A stretch of 64,000 bases of DNA from assembly GCF_020177265.1 (NCBI RefSeq), contig NZ_JAIVMC010000001.1, forward strand, positions 496,001 to 560,000. The letters are read 5' to 3'. A program made the translations under genes and the position numbers. A model generated the notes under the pieces. The model saw only the letters and a list, made by a program, of their open reading frames with translations, was not told where the DNA came from and made no database searches. The DNA is from Pseudooceanicola marinus. GTDB taxonomy: Bacteria; Pseudomonadota; Alphaproteobacteria; Rhodobacterales; Rhodobacteraceae. Below, piece by piece: positions 1,483 to 12,440 of the stretch; position 1 is the first letter of the stretch, and each line of letters starts with the position of its first letter.

Positions 1483-2712
1483 TCAGGCGGCGGGGGCTGC
1501 GGCCTGCGGACGGCGGCGCAGGTGAAGAATGACCCAGCTCACCGCAAGGCCGGAGATCGCCACCGCCAGCCAGAACAGCACTGCGTAACCCGCCGCATCG
1601 GCGATCTGCCCGGCCAGCACCGCGCCCAGCTGATAGACCAGCAGCTGCGCGCTGGCGAGGATGGTGAAATCCGTCCCCGGCTGATCGGAACTGCAGGCCG
1701 CCATGAACAGGCTGTAGAGCGCCACGATCTCCATGTAGCGGATCAGGGTCTGCGCCACCGCCGCCGCCATGGCCGGTGCAGCCGCCGTCCCCAAGAGCCC
1801 GGTCGCATGGGCGGCAAAGAGCGCGAAGACCAGCGTCCGGGCGCAGCCCAGGGTGATCAGCAGCCCCCCGGCCCCCAGGCGACGCTGGGCCAGGGCAGCG
1901 ACGGCGGCCCCGATCAGCCCCGCCGTGGCGGCAGAGCCGCCGGACAGCAGGCCGATGGTGTCCAGGTCCAGGCCGATGTCCACCAGGTAGGGCCCTTCCA
2001 TCGCCTTCACCAGCCCTTCGGAGGCGCGATAGATCAGCGCGAGCGCGAGAATGCCGAACATGCCGGGCCGGGCGAAGAAAGCGCGCAGCGACGGCCGGCG
2101 GCGGGGTGCGGCGTCGCGTGCCACCGGCGCCTCGCCCATGAAGGGCAGCGCCAGCAGGGGCAGGCACATCACCCCGGCAGCAGCCAGCATCATCACCTGC
2201 CAGCCGGCCACGGAGTACAGAAGCAGCGAGGCCGAACCACCCGCCAGAACCCCAAGCGCGACGCTGCCGGCCTGGATCGCATTGCCGATCTCGCGCTGGC
2301 GCGGCGCCAGACGCAGCGTGGCATAGCCGTCGGTGGCGACATCCTGCGTCGCCAGGGCCAGGGCGACGGCAAGCCCGGTCAGAAAGATCGCCAGCAGGTT
2401 CTCCGGAGGGAAGAAGGCCAGCGATGCCACCGCCAGCACCGAGATGCCCTGGCACAGCAGGATCCAGCCGCTGCGTTGACCGAGACGCGCCAGCGGCGCG
2501 ATGCGGTCGACCAGCGGCGCCCAGAGGAACTTGAACACCAGCGGCAGGGCCAGCAGCGACAGCATGCCGATGGACGCGCGCGACACACCCTGCTCGCGCA
2601 GGATCGGCGGGATGGCGGCGGCAAAGAGATAGGTCGGCACGCCCTGCGCCAGGTAGAGGGCGGCCAGAACGCCATAGAGGCGCCAGGGATGCGCAGCGCG
2701 GGCAGCGGTCAT
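1483..2712 (-). CDS. MFS permease, RhtX/FptX-type siderophore transporter
   Basis: A 409-residue protein with about 12 hydrophobic segments. The N-terminal part (YLAQGVPTYLFAAAIPPILR) and the TQDVATDGYA motif resemble the AmpG-like RhtX/FptX group, single-component inner-membrane carriers that import ferric siderophores such as rhizobactin or pyochelin. It is last in an apparent operon with a TonB receptor and a small protein; its ATG overlaps the stop of the preceding gene by 4 bases (ATGA), which suggests translational coupling. Family knowledge plus context support siderophore import. An AmpG-like muropeptide permease is less likely because of the receptor neighbour. Confidence 0.8.
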   Translation of the reverse strand: MTAARAAHPWRLYGVLAALYLAQGVPTYLFAAAIPPILREQGVSRASIGMLSLLALPLVFKFLWAPLVDRIAPLARLGQRSGWILLCQGISVLAVASLAFFPPENLLAIFLTGLAVALALATQDVATDGYATLRLAPRQREIGNAIQAGSVALGVLAGGSASLLLYSVAGWQVMMLAAAGVMCLPLLALPFMGEAPVARDAAPRRRPSLRAFFARPGMFGILALALIYRASEGLVKAMEGPYLVDIGLDLDTIGLLSGGSAATAGLIGAAVAALAQRRLGAGGLLITLGCARTLVFALFAAHATGLLGTAAAPAMAAAVAQTLIRYMEIVALYSLFMAACSSDQPGTDFTILASAQLLVYQLGAVLAGQIADAAGYAVLFWLAVAISGLAVSWVILHLRRRPQAAAPAA

Positions 2713-3107
2713 GGGCGAGCCTCCGTTTCGACGGTCGGGGACAGCAGGAAGGACAGCGCCGCCGCGCGGCTGTCGCTCAGCAGGACGGGCGCATCGAACA
2801 GGCGCGCGAAGGACTGCTCGGCCCGCGGCGTCGGGCGGGACATCACCACCGCCGCGGCGCAGAGCCTGGCGCGCAATCCGTCGCGGTTCTTCTTCAGCCA
2901 GCGCGCCTCCTGCCGCCGCAGCTCCGGTGGGGCCATGCCGGCGCCGGCCAGGTCGAGCAGAAGCAGGAAGGGCGCCTCCTGGGCGCCGATCCGTTCCAGC
3001 GCGGCAAGGTAGCGCGCGGCGTCTTCGTCGACCCGTGGCGGGCGAAAGGCCAGGTGCATCAGCGCGAGGCCCGGCCGGGCGTCGGGTCGGATCTCCAGGG
3101 TGATCAT
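2709..3107 (-). CDS. small conserved-looking protein in siderophore operon
   Basis: A 132-residue protein whose ATG lies two bases after the receptor stop codon and whose stop overlaps the MFS start (ATGA), so it is tightly embedded in the operon. There is no signal peptide or membrane segment. The alternation of strands and helices (LLLLDLAG, then ARLCAAAVVMSR) and the overall length recall STAS/SEC14-like small domains, but this is only an impression. The ATG was chosen because upstream extension would run inside the receptor gene. Position argues for an accessory role in iron-siderophore uptake or release; no catalytic motif is recognised. Confidence 0.7.
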   Translation of the reverse strand: MITLEIRPDARPGLALMHLAFRPPRVDEDAARYLAALERIGAQEAPFLLLLDLAGAGMAPPELRRQEARWLKKNRDGLRARLCAAAVVMSRPTPRAEQSFARLFDAPVLLSDSRAAALSFLLSPTVETEARP

Positions 3108-3109
3108 CC

Positions 3110-5329
3110 TCAGAAGGTCATCGCGTAGCCGACGCTGACCGTGCGCCCGTCGCCGCGCACCGGCAGGTTGCGCGTCGCGGTGGCCGTGGGGTTGAGGTAA
3201 TCCTCGTCGAAGAGGTTCTCGACGGCCACCGAAAGATCGCCGCGCCCCAGGGGCATCGACGCCTGCAGGTTCACCAGCGTGACGTCCTCCAGCTCGGTGG
3301 TGGCCCCTGCGCGCTCTGCCTGCCTGTCGCGCCCGCCGAGGTAGACGGCCTCGCCACGCAGGCTCAGCCCGTTGTCGAACTGGTGGGCCAGCCCCAGCAC
3401 CGCGCGCAGCGGCGTGGCGATGCGGTTGTTGGGCAGCCATTCGTCGACCGAGCCGCTGTCGTCGCTGTCGAACTTGCCCTCGCGCCAGGCCAGAAGACCG
3501 TCGAAGGTCGTCGCGGCGCCCAGATCGACGGAGCCCGACAGTTCGACGCCCCAGATCTCCTCGCGCTGCTGCTGCACGCGGTTGCTCGCGAAATCATAGG
3601 TCACGCCATTTTCCGACACCGAGTAGAAGGCCGTGGCCTGCCCGCTCCAGCTGGCACCGCGGTGGCGCAGGCCAAGCTGGTAGGTGTCCACCAGCTGCGG
3701 TTCCGGCGCGATGTCGCCATAGGCCAGCGCGAAGGTCGGCGGCGTGCCGCAGGCCGGGCTGTAGAGCGTGCCGTAGGCCGCACAGGCCTCGGCCACGGAG
3801 TTCAGCCCCGCGCGCCGGGTGAAGCTGCCGATGTCGGTCAGCGAATAGCCCTGACTGAACCCGCCGAACAGCTGGGTTTCCTCGGTCAGATCAAAGGTCG
3901 CCCCGGCGTTGAACGTCCACTGGTCATAGTCAAAGTCGCCCCCGGTGACCGAGATTGCCGGGAAGACGCTGCCGGCCACATAGGCGTCGGGCCGGATGAA
4001 GTCGCGCACCGTCAGATCGAACCGCTCGTAGCGCGCGCCGCCCGACAGGGTCAGCCGCTCGCCAACCGGCAGGGTCAGCTGCGCGAAGGCGGCGCGGGTG
4101 GTCTGTTCCATCGGCGCGATGGCATCGGCGCCATTGACCAGGGTCTGGCCGGTTTCGTCATGGCTCCAGTCGATGCCCCAGCTCAGCGAGGCGCCATCCC
4201 GCGCGCCGAAGTTCAGCGGCGTGTCGATGGCCACCGTCAGCGCGGTGCGCTTGCTGGTCAACGTGGTCTGGTTGAAATCGGCGATGGGATCGGCAGGATC
4301 GCCCGAATAGTAGACTTGGCTGTTGTAGCTGCTGTAGGGCGTGAAGCCGAAGCCCTTCTCGATATCCGCAAAGCTGAGCGTTGCGCTGAGCGCGCCGATC
4401 GCCAGCGTGTCGTCGAAATAGCTCAGCCGGTGGTAGTCCGAGGTCTCGGTGATGTCCTCGCCCGTGTAGGGTGCGGAAGGATCCTGGGTCACCGCATCGG
4501 CCGAATAGCGGCTGAAGTAGTCCGGCGACTGGGTGTAGCGGACCGCCTCAAACCCGTATTCCAGGCGCCGCCCCTCGGCCAGGTCCCAGCCCAGCACGAG
4601 GCTGCCCGATAGGTTGTCCGCCCGATCGAGCCCGCCCTGTCCCAGCATCGGGTCCGACGGCAGCTCGGCCCCGTCCCCGCCATAGGTCCGGTTCGACCGC
4701 GATCCGCTGAGCGTGGCCGCATAATCGAAGGCGCCCAGGTCCTGCGAGATCCCCAGCGACAGTTCGCTGCGCAGCGAGCCGCCCGGATCCTCGGTATAGG
4801 CCTTCAGGCGGCTGTTCAGCGTGACGACAGGGGCGGTGCCCGCGTTGTGGCCGCTTTCGGTGATGATGTTGATCGTGCCGCCCGTAGCCCCGGGGCCGTA
4901 GAGGCTGGAGGCCCCGGACACCACTTCGATCCGGTCGACACTGTTCAGGTCGATCACCGACAGGATGCGCGAGACGTCCCGCAGCGGCGTGTTGCGCGGC
5001 ACCCCGTCGACCATCACCAGAAGGCCGCGTCCGCGGAAGGTTTCGGAGGCGCCGGACAGCGACTGGTTCGGGGCCGAGAACCCCGGCACCAGCCGCGCCA
5101 GCAGCGCCGTGGGGTCATTACCACGCGTCAGTTGCTCGCGGATCCGGTCGCCCTCGATCACCTGTACGGCGCCGGGGATGCTGCCGATCTCGCGCTCGCT
5201 GCGGGTGGCAGAGAAGATCGTGATCGGCTCCAGCTCGAAGGCCTGCGCCTCGGTCCGGTGAGGCAAGGCGGCAGCCGTCAGCAGCAGGGCAGCAAGAACG
5301 GGGCGGCGGGGACGCAGGGGCAAGGGCAC
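3110..5329 (-). CDS. TonB-dependent outer-membrane siderophore receptor
   Basis: A 739-residue outer-membrane receptor. It starts at GTG with a signal peptide ending near residue 29 (TEAQA), followed by a TonB-box-like stretch (LEPITIFSATRS) and a plug domain with MVDGVPR and VVSGASSLYGPGATGGTINIIT. A long beta-barrel follows, ending in the C-terminal aromatic residue (AMTF) expected for BAM-inserted proteins. The plug and barrel resemble hydroxamate/citrate-type siderophore receptors of the RhtA group. It is first in a three-gene operon with a small protein and an RhtX-like permease, and it is divergent from an AraC regulator, the usual layout of xenosiderophore uptake loci. The exact ligand is unknown. 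Confidence 0.9.
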   Translation of the reverse strand: MPLPLRPRRPVLAALLLTAAALPHRTEAQAFELEPITIFSATRSEREIGSIPGAVQVIEGDRIREQLTRGNDPTALLARLVPGFSAPNQSLSGASETFRGRGLLVMVDGVPRNTPLRDVSRILSVIDLNSVDRIEVVSGASSLYGPGATGGTINIITESGHNAGTAPVVTLNSRLKAYTEDPGGSLRSELSLGISQDLGAFDYAATLSGSRSNRTYGGDGAELPSDPMLGQGGLDRADNLSGSLVLGWDLAEGRRLEYGFEAVRYTQSPDYFSRYSADAVTQDPSAPYTGEDITETSDYHRLSYFDDTLAIGALSATLSFADIEKGFGFTPYSSYNSQVYYSGDPADPIADFNQTTLTSKRTALTVAIDTPLNFGARDGASLSWGIDWSHDETGQTLVNGADAIAPMEQTTRAAFAQLTLPVGERLTLSGGARYERFDLTVRDFIRPDAYVAGSVFPAISVTGGDFDYDQWTFNAGATFDLTEETQLFGGFSQGYSLTDIGSFTRRAGLNSVAEACAAYGTLYSPACGTPPTFALAYGDIAPEPQLVDTYQLGLRHRGASWSGQATAFYSVSENGVTYDFASNRVQQQREEIWGVELSGSVDLGAATTFDGLLAWREGKFDSDDSGSVDEWLPNNRIATPLRAVLGLAHQFDNGLSLRGEAVYLGGRDRQAERAGATTELEDVTLVNLQASMPLGRGDLSVAVENLFDEDYLNPTATATRNLPVRGDGRTVSVGYAMTF

Positions 5330-5478
5330 GGTCGGTCTCTCTCTTGATGGCGGCAGGAGGAAAGAATCCGCTGGCGACGGCGTGCGGAAATCAATTGCTA
5401 AGTAAAATTGTCGCCTTTATGCCGGAGCTGCAATTCACGCGACTGTAAATCTCGCGCATAAGACCGGAAGGACCGCGC
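5330..5478. promoter_or_regulatory. divergent promoter region, receptor operon / AraC gene
   Basis: This 149-base gap separates two divergent genes and must carry both promoters. It is clearly AT-richer than the flanks (around 5388-5460: AAATCAATTGCTAAGTAAAA and neighbours), as expected for promoters and an AraC operator. No convincing -35/-10 pair or repeated operator half-site could be fixed by eye. An SD-like GGAAGGA lies before the AraC start. Confidence 0.6.
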
Positions 5479-6441
5479 ATGCGCCAGGACGCGCCCCCGT
5501 TCGACCCTAGCGAAGACCTGCTGCACGCGACGCTTCTGCGGCGCCTCAAACCCGCGCGGCTGGCCGAGGTGTTGCGCGCGCAGGATCTTCCGCTGTGTGT
5601 CGAGGGCGCGGGCGAGGTTGATGCCACGACCCTTGACCTGGGGCGGCTGCAGCTGCTGTCGCTGCGGTTCCGCAGCCACCCGGTGCGCCTGACTGTCGAG
5701 CCGTCCACGGCTTCCGCCCTGCTGCTGCGCGCGCCCGCCAACGGCATGGCGCTGTCAGCGCAGAAGATCGCCCCGCAGAGCTTCACCGGCGGTGACATCG
5801 CCATGATCTCTCCGCGCGCGACGACCACGGTCCTGCTGGAGACCGGCGGACGGCTGGACGTTGTCCTGCTGAAAGGGCCCGGCCCACGGGCCGAGGCGCC
5901 TCTGGCCGTCCTGCCCCTGTCGCTGGCCTCGGTTAAGATGCTGATTTACTTCGGCGGCTACCTCCTGCGCGCCGCGCCGCACCGACGCTCCGATGCGCAG
6001 ATGCTGCAACGCCAGTTCATCGAGACCCTTCAGATGGCGATGGATCACCTCTCCCGTGACTGGGCCTTCCCCACAGAGATCGAGCGCCTCAGCTTCAGCA
6101 TGGAGGCCGCGCTTGGCGACCGGGACCTGACCCTGACCAGTTTCGCCCGCCAGGTCGGCATGAGCAGCCGGAAGGTGCAGGCGGTCTTCGCGGCCAGTGG
6201 ACTGACCTTCTCCGACGTGCTGCGGGACAAGCGGCTGGACCGGGCCCGCCGCGCGCTGTGTGACGGGGGCGCCGACCTCAAGGTGGCCCAGGTCGGGTTC
6301 GACAGCGGGTTCAAGGATGCGTCCTATTTCAGCAAGTGCTTCCGCGCCCGGTTCGGGATCAGCCCGACCGCCTGCCGTCGGGCGGCCCTTGCGCAGGCGA
6401 ACCCGGCAGAGGACGCGAAGAGCCGGAACGGCGAGGCCTGA
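5479..6441 (+). CDS. AraC-family transcriptional regulator of siderophore uptake
   Basis: A 320-residue protein. The C-terminal third (about residues 210-305) is an AraC/XylS double helix-turn-helix: a first HTH with LTLTSFARQVGMSSRKVQ, a linker with DKRLDRARR, and the second HTH ending in GFKDASYFSKCFRARFGISPTACRR. The N-terminal two thirds is an unassigned ligand-sensing domain. Divergent position next to a TonB receptor matches siderophore-responsive regulators such as RhrA or PchR, which activate receptor genes when the ferric siderophore is bound. The regulatory target is inferred from position. Confidence 0.9.
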   Translation: MRQDAPPFDPSEDLLHATLLRRLKPARLAEVLRAQDLPLCVEGAGEVDATTLDLGRLQLLSLRFRSHPVRLTVEPSTASALLLRAPANGMALSAQKIAPQSFTGGDIAMISPRATTTVLLETGGRLDVVLLKGPGPRAEAPLAVLPLSLASVKMLIYFGGYLLRAAPHRRSDAQMLQRQFIETLQMAMDHLSRDWAFPTEIERLSFSMEAALGDRDLTLTSFARQVGMSSRKVQAVFAASGLTFSDVLRDKRLDRARRALCDGGADLKVAQVGFDSGFKDASYFSKCFRARFGISPTACRRAALAQANPAEDAKSRNGEA

Positions 6442-7760: not shown

Positions 7761-8190
7761 AGGACAGGCTCCTTGATCTACGTGTTGCGACTAATATGAG
7801 TTGATGCGTACCACAAAGGTGCGAAGGAACAAGCGTGCGCGGCGCGGATGACCGTGGCCTCTCCGAAAGGTGAAAGGGGATCAGCGGGTTGATCTGATTT
7901 GTGGCCGGTCGCGAATTCCCTGCGGGCCTCCCCCCGGTTTTCTGCCCACCCAGCCCGAGATTGCACGGTCGAGGGGGAAAATGCGCTGCGCGATCAATCT
8001 GCGCTCTCCGACGAGCCATTGCGTTTCAGGCATCCGCCTCTCGGAACACGCGGCCCGGTGTTGGCGACCCCGTTCATTCCGAGAACCTGTGCCGTGCGGG
8101 CCGAAACCGGACAGTTCTCGAAAGCCCCCGGTCCGCTCGAAAGCGTCTGCGCATTGACACCGCCACCAGCCGCCTGCACGGTGCGAGCAC
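7761..8190. other. 430-base intergenic region upstream of SDR and riboswitch
   Basis: No credible coding frame. It must contain the minus-strand SDR promoter (the AT-richer stretch near 7770-7830) and the plus-strand promoter for the riboswitch RNA. A TTGACA hexamer occurs at 8154-8159 without a good -10 partner at the usual distance. Confidence 0.4.
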
Positions 8191-8283
8191 AACCAGGGGT
8201 GCTCCGACACGGGGGCTGAGATGCGCGGCGCGGCGCGAACCCTTTCAAAGCTGATCCGGATAATGCCGGCGGAGCGAGGTCCC
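8191..8283 (+). promoter_or_regulatory. TPP riboswitch (THI-box aptamer)
   Basis: The conserved THI-box elements occur in order: GGGGTGC at 8196-8202, GGGGCTGAGATG at 8212-8223, ACCCTTT at 8239-8245, then CTGATCCGGATAATGCC at 8251-8267 followed by GGCGGAGCGAGG. These match the pyrimidine- and pyrophosphate-binding halves of thiamine pyrophosphate aptamers. The closing P1 helix can form between ACC at 8192-8194 and GGT at 8278-8280. The 3' part (GAGCGAGG) is also the only Shine-Dalgarno candidate for the ATG at 8284, so ligand binding would directly hide the ribosome site. Translational repression by TPP is the inferred mode; no U-rich terminator follows. Confidence 0.92.
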
Positions 8284-8439
8284 ATGTTTCACGACACTCT
8301 GATGTCGCATCCCTTAATGCTGTCGAGCGCGCTGGACGCCCTGGTGCGGGGCCCCGCGCCCCTGCCCCCGCAACCGGCGAAGGGCCAAACCCCATGGGTG
8401 CCGGGAGAGGTCCTCGTTCGCGGCGAGGTGGCGCAATGA
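8284..8439 (+). CDS. 51-codon ORF directly controlled by TPP riboswitch
   Basis: The ATG is immediately after the aptamer, 4-9 bases from the SD inside P1, and the stop codon overlaps the ATG of the LLM monooxygenase (ATGA). Third-position G+C is high, as in neighbouring genes. The product is short and proline-rich (RGPAPLPPQPAKGQ) with no membrane segment and no recognised domain. It could be a real small partner protein, or a leader ORF whose translation carries ribosomes to the monooxygenase start. The sequence alone does not decide between these. Confidence 0.55.
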   Translation: MFHDTLMSHPLMLSSALDALVRGPAPLPPQPAKGQTPWVPGEVLVRGEVAQ

Positions 8440-9656
8440 TCCTCAATGCCGTGGTCTTCGGTTACGGCAGCCATGAGGCCGCCTGGCGCCATCCTGACAT
8501 GGAGCCGACAGCGCCTCTGACCCTGCCTCACTGGATCCAGTGCGCCCAACAGGCAGAGGCCGCCGGGTTCGACGGGCTCTTCCTCGGGGACATCCTCTGC
8601 CTGCAGGACCGGCCCGAGGATCACCCCTCGGAAGCGCTCGACCCCTTCATGGTTCTGGCCGCAGTCGCTGGCGCAACCAGCCGGCTGAGGTTGACCGGCA
8701 CCGCCTCGACCAGCTTCAACCATCCCTGGCACCTGGCCCGGCGCATCCTGTCCCTGCATCACCTGAGCGCAGGTCGGGCGGGCTGGAACATCGTCACATC
8801 CTCCTATCCGCAGGAGGCGGAGAACTTCGGCTGGTCCGAGATGCCTGGCACCGAAGACCGCTACGCCCGCGCTGAGGAGGTGGTGGGGGCCGTCCGCGCC
8901 CTCTGGGGCGGCTGGGACGGGATCACCCGGCTTGCCGATCAGGCGGCGGGGCGCTGGCTTGACACGACGCCGCCGCGGGTGGACGCCACGGGCAGGTTCG
9001 GCGCCATCCATGGCGCGCTGAACCTCTCCCCCGCCCCCTGGGACCGGCCGCTGCTGGCGCAGGCCGGGTCATCGCCCGCTGGTCTGGCCTTCGCGGCGCG
9101 CCACGCCGACCAGGTGTTTACCGTGCAGTCCGACATGGCCGCAGCCAGGGCGTTCCGGGATCGCGCAAGGGCCCTGGCCGCAGCCGCCGGAAGAGACCCC
9201 GACGAGATCGCGGTGCTGCCCGGCCTCATTCCCTTCGTGGCCGAAACGGCGGAGGCCGCCGAGGCGGAATTGGCAACGCTCACGCAGCGCCTGAACCTTG
9301 ATCACGCCACGACCAAGCTGGAGCGGTTCCTGGGGCTGTCCCTGGCCGGTCTTACCCTCGACGCGCCGGTGCCTTTCGGGCCGGGCGACCTGGCGCCCAA
9401 TGCCTTCAGCAACTCCCGCGCCCACGTCCTGCTTGGCGAGGCACGGCAAAAGGCCCTGACGCTTCGCCAGTTGCTGGCCCGGTTCGCCGCCGGGCGCGGC
9501 CACCTCCTTGTCGTCGGGACGGGAGAGCAGGTCGCCGGAGTCATGCGACAGTGGGTCGAGGCCGGCGCGGCCGACGGTTTCAACGTGATGCCGCCCCTTC
9601 TCCCCCAAGGGATCGAGAGGTTTGGACAGCTGGTTCCCACCGTTGGCCGGATCTGA
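8436..9656 (+). CDS. LLM-class flavin-dependent monooxygenase (NtaA/SnaA/DszA type)
   Basis: A 406-residue luciferase-like TIM-barrel protein. Family-typical stretches include CAQQAEAAGFDGLFLGD near the N-terminus, GRAGWNIVTSS around residue 110, the DRYARAEEVV helix near 150 and PLLAQAGSSPAGLAFAARHAD near 210. These match the FMNH2-dependent NtaA/SnaA/DszA branch, which hydroxylates or cleaves small N- or S-containing molecules using FMN reduced by a partner reductase. No flavin reductase gene is adjacent. The gene overlaps a 51-codon ORF behind a TPP riboswitch, so its expression is probably thiamine-repressed. A role in thiamine or precursor salvage is inferred from this control only. The ATG at 8436 was chosen over one 42 bases upstream because conserved sequence begins here. 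Confidence 0.9.
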   Translation: MILNAVVFGYGSHEAAWRHPDMEPTAPLTLPHWIQCAQQAEAAGFDGLFLGDILCLQDRPEDHPSEALDPFMVLAAVAGATSRLRLTGTASTSFNHPWHLARRILSLHHLSAGRAGWNIVTSSYPQEAENFGWSEMPGTEDRYARAEEVVGAVRALWGGWDGITRLADQAAGRWLDTTPPRVDATGRFGAIHGALNLSPAPWDRPLLAQAGSSPAGLAFAARHADQVFTVQSDMAAARAFRDRARALAAAAGRDPDEIAVLPGLIPFVAETAEAAEAELATLTQRLNLDHATTKLERFLGLSLAGLTLDAPVPFGPGDLAPNAFSNSRAHVLLGEARQKALTLRQLLARFAAGRGHLLVVGTGEQVAGVMRQWVEAGAADGFNVMPPLLPQGIERFGQLVPTVGRI

Positions 9657-10013: not shown

Positions 10014-12440
10014 ATGAAAAAACTACTTGCAGGCGCTTCTACGCTGGCCATTCTCACCACGCCGGCGCTCGCTGATTGTACGCCGACTTCGCCTACCAGC
10101 GTTGAATGTGTGGCCCCCGGGACGGGCGGATTCAGCGATGCCGGTTTCAATGACGGTACGATCATCGTCCGGGACGGGGCAACCGTCTCCCCGCCGGGTG
10201 ACGCGATCCTCTTCGGCGACAACACCTCACTCACCGTCGAAGAGAACGGCGTCGTATTCTCGGGCGCCAATGGCGTCGCGGCCGGGGACGGCTTCGAGAT
10301 CGACAACGACGGATCGATCACCGGCGGCACCGGGATCATGGGCGGCAGCGGCACCGACGCCGATCGGGCCACCATCGACAACACCGGCAGCATCACCGGC
10401 ACGCCGGCCAATGCGATCGACGTCGACGATTACGTCACGATCACCAATGGCACCGCGGCCGACGGTGACGCAGCGGCCAGCATCACTGGCGGCGCGCATG
10501 GTATCCTGGCCGGCAGCAACCTGACCCTGACCAACCACGATGACATCGAGGGCACGATGGGCAGTGGTGTCTTCGCCACCGACGACGCCTCGATCGACAA
10601 CTTCGGCAGCATCACCGGCGGCATGGGCGACGGCCTCCACCTCGGCAACGGCTTCGACGTGGAAAACGACGGCAGCATCGAAGGCGGCAACGGCATCTTC
10701 GGCGGCAGCGGCACCGACGCCGATCGCGCCACCATCACCAACACCGGCAGCATCGACGGCACGATCAGCCACGGCATTTCCGTCGGCAATTTCGTCACCA
10801 TCACCAACGGCACCGCAGACGACAGCGATCCCGACGCGAGCGTCACCGGCGCCTCGATCGGCATCCTTGCCGGCGCCGACCTGACCCTCACCAACCACGA
10901 CGAAATCGAGGGTGAAAACGCAAGCGGTGTGCAGGCCACCGACGACGCCACGATCGACAACTTCGGCAGCATCACAGGGGCCAACGGCGACGGCCTGCAC
11001 CTGGGCAACAACGCCGTTGTCACCAACGGCAGCTCCGATGCGTCCGATCCGGCCGCGTCCATCACCGGCAGCGCGAACGGTATCTTCGCAGGCACCGGCC
11101 TTGATCTGACGAACTACGGCGAGATCGAGGGCACCACCGGGGTCACCACCACCGGCGCGAACGCCGACATCGAAAACTGGGGCAGCATCACCGGGACCGG
11201 TGGCACCGCGCTCAACCTCGGCAGCGGCAGCGACGAAGTGGTGAACCGCGGCACGATCACGGGCGACGTCAACATGGGCTCGGGCTCCGACAGCCTGCTG
11301 CTGGCGGCTGGGTCGACTGTCGATGGCAACATCGACATGGCCCAGGGCAGTGACACGCTGGAGCTCGAGTTCGGGTCCTCCGTCGATGGTGACATCGACA
11401 TGGGCGTGGCCACCGATACGTTGATCCTCAACTCGATCAACGTGTCCGGCACCGTGGACATGGGCTCCGGCGGCGCGACCGACACCCTGCGGGTGCTGGG
11501 CGACATCGGGCCGGGCGTCATCGCCTTCTCCGACAACGTCGAGGTCTATGATGACGACGAAGCGCCCGACACCGCGCTCTTCACCGGCGACTTCCTGATC
11601 GTCGCGGACCGGACGGTCTTTGCCGGCCAGGACGCCCTGGCCACGCGCCAGACCTACCAGCAGAGCACCAGCATCATGAGCGCCTCGGCGACCCCCGGCT
11701 GGTACGGCAGCGGCTCCATCTTCGGCGGCGATGCCGAGTTCAACGGTGGCGACGTGCTGATCGGCTACAACGCCGAGACCTTCGGTGGCTTCCTGTCCTT
11801 CTCGAAGGCAGACGCCGACGCGGACATCTCCGACAGCGACTTCGAACGTCACAACTTCCTGCTGGGCGTCAAGGGCTTCACCCCGATGGGCGCAGGCGTG
11901 GTCAGCGGCATCGCCTACATCGGCCGCGGCGATGGTGACATCAAGAGCGCCATGGACGTGACCGGCCAGGCCGCCGTCGATGACACCTCCTTCGGCATGG
12001 CGGCCCGCTATGACCTGAAGCCTGCAAGCGGCGAAGGTCTGGGCTTCTCCGCCGAAGCAGGCGCCAGCCGCATCACCTTCGACAGCTTCGACCCCTCGGG
12101 TCTGGCCGATGCGACCATCGAGGAACGCGACCTGACCGCCTCCTACGTGTCGCTGGAAACCGGCTACAGCCTTTCCCTGTCGGGCGGAAACACCATCCGT
12201 CCCTTCCTGGGGGCCGTGGCGCTGTTCTCCAACGGAGATGACGTGACCATGTCCGCACAGGGGACGAACAACTCGAATGCCCCCGGCTCGACGAGCTTCA
12301 GCACCAGCGGCGACGATCTGACCATGCTGCGCCTCGGCGCCGAACTGGGCGGGTCCGCCGGCTGGACCGCCAAGGTCGAAGGCCAGTTCGACGACAACGG
12401 CGACACCACCGGCATCGTCAGCTTCGGCATGGCCTTCTGA
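10014..12440 (+). CDS. autotransporter with repeat passenger and beta-barrel domain
   Basis: An 808-residue secreted/outer-membrane protein. Residues 1-20 are a signal peptide (MKK start, ALA cleavage site). The passenger (about 25-530) is Gly/Asp/Thr-rich and built of NxGSITG, DxxxITNxG and GIxAG units that should stack as a right-handed beta-helix. It contains 120-residue tandem repeats followed by DMGSGSD-type turns. From about residue 555 a beta-barrel domain begins (GSIFGG, LIGYNAETFGGF), ending in GIVSFGMAF with C-terminal Phe, as in type V secretion. The internal ATG at 10014 was chosen for its signal peptide and ribosome site. Likely a surface adhesin or structural protein; no protease triad is seen. 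Confidence 0.88.
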   Translation: MKKLLAGASTLAILTTPALADCTPTSPTSVECVAPGTGGFSDAGFNDGTIIVRDGATVSPPGDAILFGDNTSLTVEENGVVFSGANGVAAGDGFEIDNDGSITGGTGIMGGSGTDADRATIDNTGSITGTPANAIDVDDYVTITNGTAADGDAAASITGGAHGILAGSNLTLTNHDDIEGTMGSGVFATDDASIDNFGSITGGMGDGLHLGNGFDVENDGSIEGGNGIFGGSGTDADRATITNTGSIDGTISHGISVGNFVTITNGTADDSDPDASVTGASIGILAGADLTLTNHDEIEGENASGVQATDDATIDNFGSITGANGDGLHLGNNAVVTNGSSDASDPAASITGSANGIFAGTGLDLTNYGEIEGTTGVTTTGANADIENWGSITGTGGTALNLGSGSDEVVNRGTITGDVNMGSGSDSLLLAAGSTVDGNIDMAQGSDTLELEFGSSVDGDIDMGVATDTLILNSINVSGTVDMGSGGATDTLRVLGDIGPGVIAFSDNVEVYDDDEAPDTALFTGDFLIVADRTVFAGQDALATRQTYQQSTSIMSASATPGWYGSGSIFGGDAEFNGGDVLIGYNAETFGGFLSFSKADADADISDSDFERHNFLLGVKGFTPMGAGVVSGIAYIGRGDGDIKSAMDVTGQAAVDDTSFGMAARYDLKPASGEGLGFSAEAGASRITFDSFDPSGLADATIEERDLTASYVSLETGYSLSLSGGNTIRPFLGAVALFSNGDDVTMSAQGTNNSNAPGSTSFSTSGDDLTMLRLGAELGGSAGWTAKVEGQFDDNGDTTGIVSFGMAF
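10281..11200 (+). repeat. 360-bp coding repeats in autotransporter passenger
   Basis: Matching landmarks recur exactly 360 bases apart: GGCGGCAGCGGCACCGACGC at 10341 and 10701, and CTTCGGCAGCATCAC at 10601 and 10961. There are two full units and a diverged third. The period keeps frame (120 residues), so copy number can change by recombination without breaking the gene. Confidence 0.85.

Follow-up and report, generated by a model that had tools for sequence, protein, structure and literature searches.

We propose, with a probability of roughly 0.7, that a ykoF-type TPP riboswitch controls the translation of an FMNH2-dependent monooxygenase that would act in the salvage of thiamine vitamers, as a partner of the YkoF/ThiXZY importer. 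Riboswitch and enzyme gene lie in the window, as we call the whole 64-kb stretch of DNA that was analyzed. The enzyme, a luciferase-like (LLM) monooxygenase, probably carries out an uncharacterized step in the recovery of vitamin B1. We assign it to the salvage of thiamine or its vitamers on comparative grounds that we consider strong: in three other genomes, a riboswitch-ykoF-thiXZY operon ends with its ortholog.

A cmscan search of the window against Rfam 15 returned a single match above the gathering score, RF00059 (TPP riboswitch), at positions 8185 to 8294 of the forward strand (61.4 bits for a cut-off of 54.3, E 1.3e-9), which covers the model at full length (positions 1 to 105). The covariance model thereby bears out the initial annotation, which had read a TPP riboswitch here with a start at 8191, 6 bases inside the Rfam match, and an end at the ATG of a 51-codon open reading frame (ORF); the match indeed spans this ATG (position 8284), and the 3' end of the aptamer reaches past it. 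The window aptamer has four nonstandard pairs (8 positions), of which P1 holds two and P3 and P4 one each, and its first P4 pair is swapped, being G-C for a consensus C-G. Like the known TPP riboswitches of RF00059, the window copy is full length and has a Shine-Dalgarno-like sequence in its 3' part, GGAGCGAGG (8271 to 8279, forward strand), which is located shortly before the ATG of the ORF. The duplex of GGAGCGAGG with a 16S rRNA tail has a predicted energy of -9.0 kcal/mol. No terminator-like site was found between 7760 and 9950, nor did a consensus search detect a sigma-70-like promoter over the same range. Whereas TPP riboswitches usually precede genes for synthesis or transport, this one precedes a monooxygenase gene (8436 to 9656, forward strand), with the 51-codon ORF (8284 to 8439, forward strand) in between. 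The ORF and the monooxygenase start share an ATGA, an overlap that had been pointed out from the letters alone and that our coordinates confirm.

The same arrangement is present in Pseudooceanicola marinus LMG 23705 (genome G009; the window genome is G000), where the aptamer ahead of the LLM gene scores 63.5 bits for RF00059. Between the two genomes, 92 of the 99 bases from 8185 to 8283 are identical, compared with 17 of the 100 bases upstream of the aptamer in an ungapped comparison. Since the block of riboswitch, tiny ORF, and enzyme gene recurs in G009 with its aptamer kept and its upstream flank not, we consider it to be beyond chance.

We aligned the window aptamer with the other TPP riboswitches of five genomes (G000, G009, G021, G204, and G378; 17 riboswitches altogether). 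It is 93% identical to the aptamer of the LLM gene in G009 and 70 to 78% identical to five aptamers that precede ykoF, as against 39 to 55% for ten other TPP aptamers. In the tree, an ultrafast bootstrap value of 98 supports the split between these ten and the ykoF and LLM aptamers, and the ten also differ at two places of the sequence: the LLM and ykoF aptamers read AGCUGAU and GAGCGAGG, whereas the others have CCUGAU (nine of ten; CCUGAA in one) at the first place and AGGGA (nine of ten; AGGAA in one) at the second. On the cmscan alignment, this difference corresponds to the swapped first pair of P4. By alignment and tree, the window riboswitch is of the ykoF type.

We then analyzed the product of the monooxygenase gene, a protein of 406 aa. 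It matches TIGR03860 (FMN_nitrolo) with 383.3 bits, well over the curated cut-off of 279.7, and PF00296 with 165.3 bits, and it is an FMN-dependent LLM monooxygenase of the NtaA/DmoA (FMN_nitrolo) family, as the initial annotation had recognized in calling it NtaA/SnaA type. Members of this family (NtaA, DmoA, DszA, and YtnJ) oxidize C-N and C-S bonds, and YtnJ frees a thiol from an S-succinyl adduct. The closest solved chains by sequence are those of Bacillus subtilis YtnJ/MoxC (1yw1 and 6ask), which belong to the same family; at ∼248 bits, YtnJ is a distant relative, and a similar substrate is not implied. None of the five neighboring proteins of the window that were scanned is a flavin reductase. 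Between G000 and G009, the enzyme is 92% identical, with a dN of 0.041 and a dS of 0.292 (dN/dS 0.14), and it is, as far as this pair of sequences tells, intact and under purifying selection.

Orthologs of the enzyme are rare and sporadic, being found in 4 of the 394 genomes sampled from the family, the window genome included. At an E value of ≤1e-90, these four are G000, G204 (72% identity), G378 (70%), and G293 (67%, partial). In the genus sample (22 genomes), there were five genomes with a match at ≤1e-40, three of which hold orthologs (G000; G009, 92%; and G021, 71%). Two matches were obtained at ≤1e-110 in the order sample (G000 and G204, from 390 genomes), and only G000 matched at ≤1e-95 in the class sample of 385 genomes; the four samples overlap. 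A scan of genome contigs for the LLM enzyme returned P. marinus LMG 23705 (92%) and one partial locus of a MAG. The six orthologs, five full length and one partial, form one clade with a support of 1.0, apart from distant homologs of 34 to 45% identity (12 rows of the tree, which represent 11 distinct genes, since one gene appears twice, as L015 and L016).

Evaluation of the genetic context of the five full-length orthologs revealed a complete riboswitch-ykoF-thiX-thiZ-thiY-LLM operon in three genomes (G021, G204, and G378), in which the monooxygenase start overlaps the thiY stop by 4 bp. The YkoF, ThiX, ThiZ, and ThiY proteins of these operons are 65 to 85% identical to their counterparts in G000. 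In G000 and G009, the LLM gene stands alone behind a riboswitch of its own and the ykoF operon is elsewhere, on another contig in the window genome (locus L004), with no LLM match in the stretch around the ykoF operon of either genome. The window copy and that of G009 are consequently not contiguous with ykoF-thiXZY, with which they share the riboswitch subtype, and the window copy is an ortholog of the operon gene and not a member of the operon. The riboswitch-ORF-LLM order, which had been suggested as something to look for in other genomes, therefore recurs in G009, but G021, G204, and G378 have the LLM gene at the operon end instead. In G378 (L023), the operon is divergent from a lumazine synthase gene (2671 to 3135) that is preceded by an FMN riboswitch (3204 to 3336; 118.8 bits).

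The distant homologs gave a different picture. No TPP riboswitch above cut-off was found at twelve of their loci (L011 to L017, with flanks of 1.5 kb, and L082 to L086, five plasmid regions with 5-kb flanks taken from 30 of 106 matching records). For L011 to L017, this absence is a weak control, because the same flanks miss the operon riboswitch, which lies further upstream, at the ortholog locus L010. The search for neighboring genes had a positive control in L010, where ThiY and ThiZ were detected with the 1.5-kb flank; at the twelve loci, it found no relative of YkoF, ThiX, or ThiY and only generic ABC ATPases, in three of them. As far as seen, the link to thiamine is a property of the ortholog clade, given that the distant homologs showed no thiamine context within these flanks.

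The tiny ORF between riboswitch and enzyme gene has the same length (156 bases) and an intact frame in G000 and G009. Its peptide is identical at only 29 of 51 residues, with a dN of 0.290 and a dS of 0.296 (dN/dS ∼1, one pair of genomes), and matches nothing in Pfam or NCBIfam at E values of ≤1, so we rejected a conserved leader peptide. Since dN is close to dS in the ORF while the dN of the enzyme is far lower, the peptide is without visible constraint. We infer that the natural role of the ORF is that of a leader coupled to the enzyme through the ATGA. A Shine-Dalgarno-like GAGG for the monooxygenase (8425 to 8428, forward strand) is located inside the ORF and could pair with CCUCG at 8412 to 8416. 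The letters of this stem are also present in G009, where the Shine-Dalgarno sequence is predicted to be paired; in contrast, the minimum-energy fold of the window lacks the stem and leaves the monooxygenase Shine-Dalgarno sequence about half unpaired. A conserved hairpin over this site is thus partly supported by the folding predictions.

The ORF may be a remnant of the ykoF start. Directly behind the aptamer, both share ATGTT(T/C), and the in-register offset was the best in seven of eight comparisons between them, an offset that the shared ATGTT favors. When the ATG was left out, codon shuffling gave p values from 0.0004 to 0.16, uncorrected, and an unbiased local alignment of the ORF with the operon gave p values of 0.16 to 1.00 over 16 comparisons, none of them significant. 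Because of the biased offset, the wide range of p values, and the nonsignificant local alignment, the origin from the ykoF start stays a suggestion, weakly supported by these comparisons. We also considered an origin of the 3' end of the ORF from the end of thiY, which local alignment did not support.

We propose that the region works as follows. At low TPP, the Shine-Dalgarno sequence within the aptamer would be free, allowing translation of the 51-codon leader and then, through the ATGA overlap, of the monooxygenase. At high TPP, the aptamer would fold and hide the start, and leader and enzyme would both be off. The simplest mode would be for the TPP-bound aptamer to mask the start directly, and switching off at high TPP, which had been suggested earlier, fits the anatomy of the region, as the Shine-Dalgarno sequence is inside the aptamer and a terminator would not fit between the aptamer and the ATG. 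The leader would relay the decision of the riboswitch to the enzyme, its amino acids being irrelevant. The enzyme, in turn, would oxidatively open or dealkylate a thiamine-derived compound imported by ThiXZY or ThiBPQ.

We then looked into the thiamine genes of the window genome (4.55 Mb in 28 contigs), which has three TPP riboswitches. One of the other two precedes YkoF (PF07615), an ABC permease, an ABC ATPase, and an NMT1/THI5-type binding protein (L004), and the second precedes ThiB (TIGR01276, 326.1 bits; L005). Thiamine pyrophosphokinase (TPK) is present (96.5 bits, cut-off 76.4). Profile searches of G000 gave no match for thiC or tenA and none above cut-off for thiD (best 26 bits, cut-off 205) or thiE (best a relative of 81 bits, cut-off 145.1). 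All five genomes searched contain a ThiE-like relative of 76 to 83 bits (L052; cut-off 145.1). In G009, thiD, thiE, and thiC form a cluster (L056, G009:C29:78000-94000, 16 kb with flanks) to which G000 shows nothing beyond short weak matches. An assembly gap is possible, the assembly being 98.8% complete, but it would have to contain the whole thi cluster. From these gene contents, G000 seems to be auxotrophic for thiamine and unable to couple the free pyrimidine and thiazole halves with the known enzymes. This bears on the initial proposal of an oxidation step in the salvage of thiamine or a precursor: salvage as such gains support from the ykoF-thiXZY operon context, but the precursor part has to be treated with caution for a genome without thiC, thiD, thiE, and tenA above cut-offs.

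Two readings of the enzyme's function remain, the release of a pyrimidine vitamer and the repair of a whole-thiamine derivative. In the first, the enzyme would act on pyrimidines with N or S substituents, FAMP for example, to free HMP, HMP aldehyde, or AmMP and would stand in for Bacillus YlmB in marine bacteria that lack it. We regard this as a real possibility that falls somewhat short of an even chance. The gene content of G204 and G378, with thiD and thiE but no thiC above cut-off, is in its favor, as are the tabulation of ThiY and YkoF as importer parts binding pyrimidine vitamers (or B1) in the accessible text of PMC10881298 and the failure of two Roseobacters without a clear YlmB to grow on FAMP, as given in the accessible part of PMC10470507. 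The product would, however, be unusable by the known route in G000, which is devoid of thiD, thiE, and tenA above cut-off. The comparison with TenA/YlmB pyrimidine salvage also has two sides. Although TenA is of a different family from the LLM enzyme, the TenA relative of G378 (PF03070, 147.6 bits; L060) is found directly behind a second NMT1-type binding protein, just as the LLM gene follows thiY. G204 and G378 each carry such a relative, at 121 bits below the TIGR04306 cut-off of 130, and there is no TenA match in G000, G009, or G021 (21 genomes were searched, leaving out G014, G015, G017, and G293). As the TenA relative and the LLM gene coexist in G204 and G378, we rejected the LLM enzyme as a simple replacement of TenA, which counts against pyrimidine release in that form.

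In the second reading, the enzyme would remove an adduct from thiamine or its ring-opened thiol form by S- or N-dealkylation and return thiamine for pyrophosphorylation. Such a repair is conceivable because G000 has TPK, along with ThiB and a riboswitch-controlled enzyme, but not thiC, thiD, thiE, or tenA above cut-off, and the closest solved relatives, YtnJ/MoxC, include an enzyme that frees a thiol from an adduct. Yet the relationship to YtnJ is distant (∼248 bits), and G000 may have lost its thi genes recently, as G009 has them, or may seem to lack them through an assembly gap; we judge this reading rather improbable. A bolder version, unlikely in our estimation, would have a riboswitch-controlled flavin monooxygenase repair damaged or adducted thiamine in a genome devoid of the genes for joining the two halves, the decision being carried over ∼150 bases by a throw-away, leftover leader ORF.

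In G000, ThiC, ThiD, ThiE, and TenA are all missing above cut-off, which seems to bar the known route for using a salvaged pyrimidine, and the LLM gene could then be a leftover, useful within the ykoF operon of its relatives and here a mere passenger under an inherited riboswitch. The short weak matches to the 16-kb thi stretch of G009, the sporadic occurrence of the LLM gene, and the near-neutral tiny ORF agree with this view. On the other hand, the enzyme is intact, its dN/dS for the G000-G009 pair is 0.14, and 92 of 99 aptamer bases are conserved, although the thi cluster may have been lost recently, after this selection had acted. We find it quite unlikely that the gene is such a relic. 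Still less likely, to the point of being a long shot, is the detoxification of thiamine antivitamins (such as bacimethrin or methoxythiamin) by an enzyme induced at low TPP, as the diphosphates of antivitamins are themselves able to bind TPP riboswitches, even if starvation caused by antivitamins could lift the switch. Microcystis releases such antivitamins, according to the accessible text of PMC12345177.

Our proposal that the enzyme works with the YkoF/ThiXZY importer gives an uncharacterized oxygenase a vitamin B1 assignment, riboswitch control being strong evidence for the pathway of a gene, and ties it to a vitamer importer. No publication that we found connects a thiamine-salvage monooxygenase of the LLM or flavin-dependent kind with either a TPP riboswitch or ykoF/thiXYZ; the search left subscription journals mostly uncovered, and an earlier mention is possible. 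The survey of the TPP regulon in PMC3766115 deals with synthesis and transport genes, and the word monooxygenase is absent from the accessible main text (supplementary gene lists aside). It is likewise absent from the accessible part of PMC5627462, in which ykoF and thiXYZ are present. In the accessible portions of PMC10881298, PMC12236431, PMC10470507, PMC9870897, PMC10269752, and PMC8839250, the monooxygenases, where there are any, are others (ammonia, dimethylamine, tetrahydrofuran, and COQ6). As far as searched, the LLM enzyme is thus an unreported target of a TPP riboswitch, and a real and sensible one. The setting is that of marine bacteria living amid circulating degradation products of B1, and the strains of PMC10470507 showed no clear YlmB, as far as its accessible text goes. 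The two Roseobacters without a clear YlmB in the accessible part of that study did not grow on FAMP, which leaves a real gap that an unrecognized enzyme for vitamers could fill elsewhere. To ask what oxidizes or repairs B1 vitamers, a single purified enzyme and a small panel of compounds would now suffice.

Two further observations concern the surroundings of the riboswitch. Downstream of the monooxygenase gene, positions 10014 to 12440 encode a long, repetitive, acidic protein with the look of an autotransporter and no Pfam match; the ORF map of G009 (L024) has no counterpart of it in the interval from the monooxygenase gene to the one that follows. Upstream, a TonB-dependent receptor gene is located beside a divergent AraC-type regulator (3110 to 6441), a pairing that is typical of siderophore uptake.
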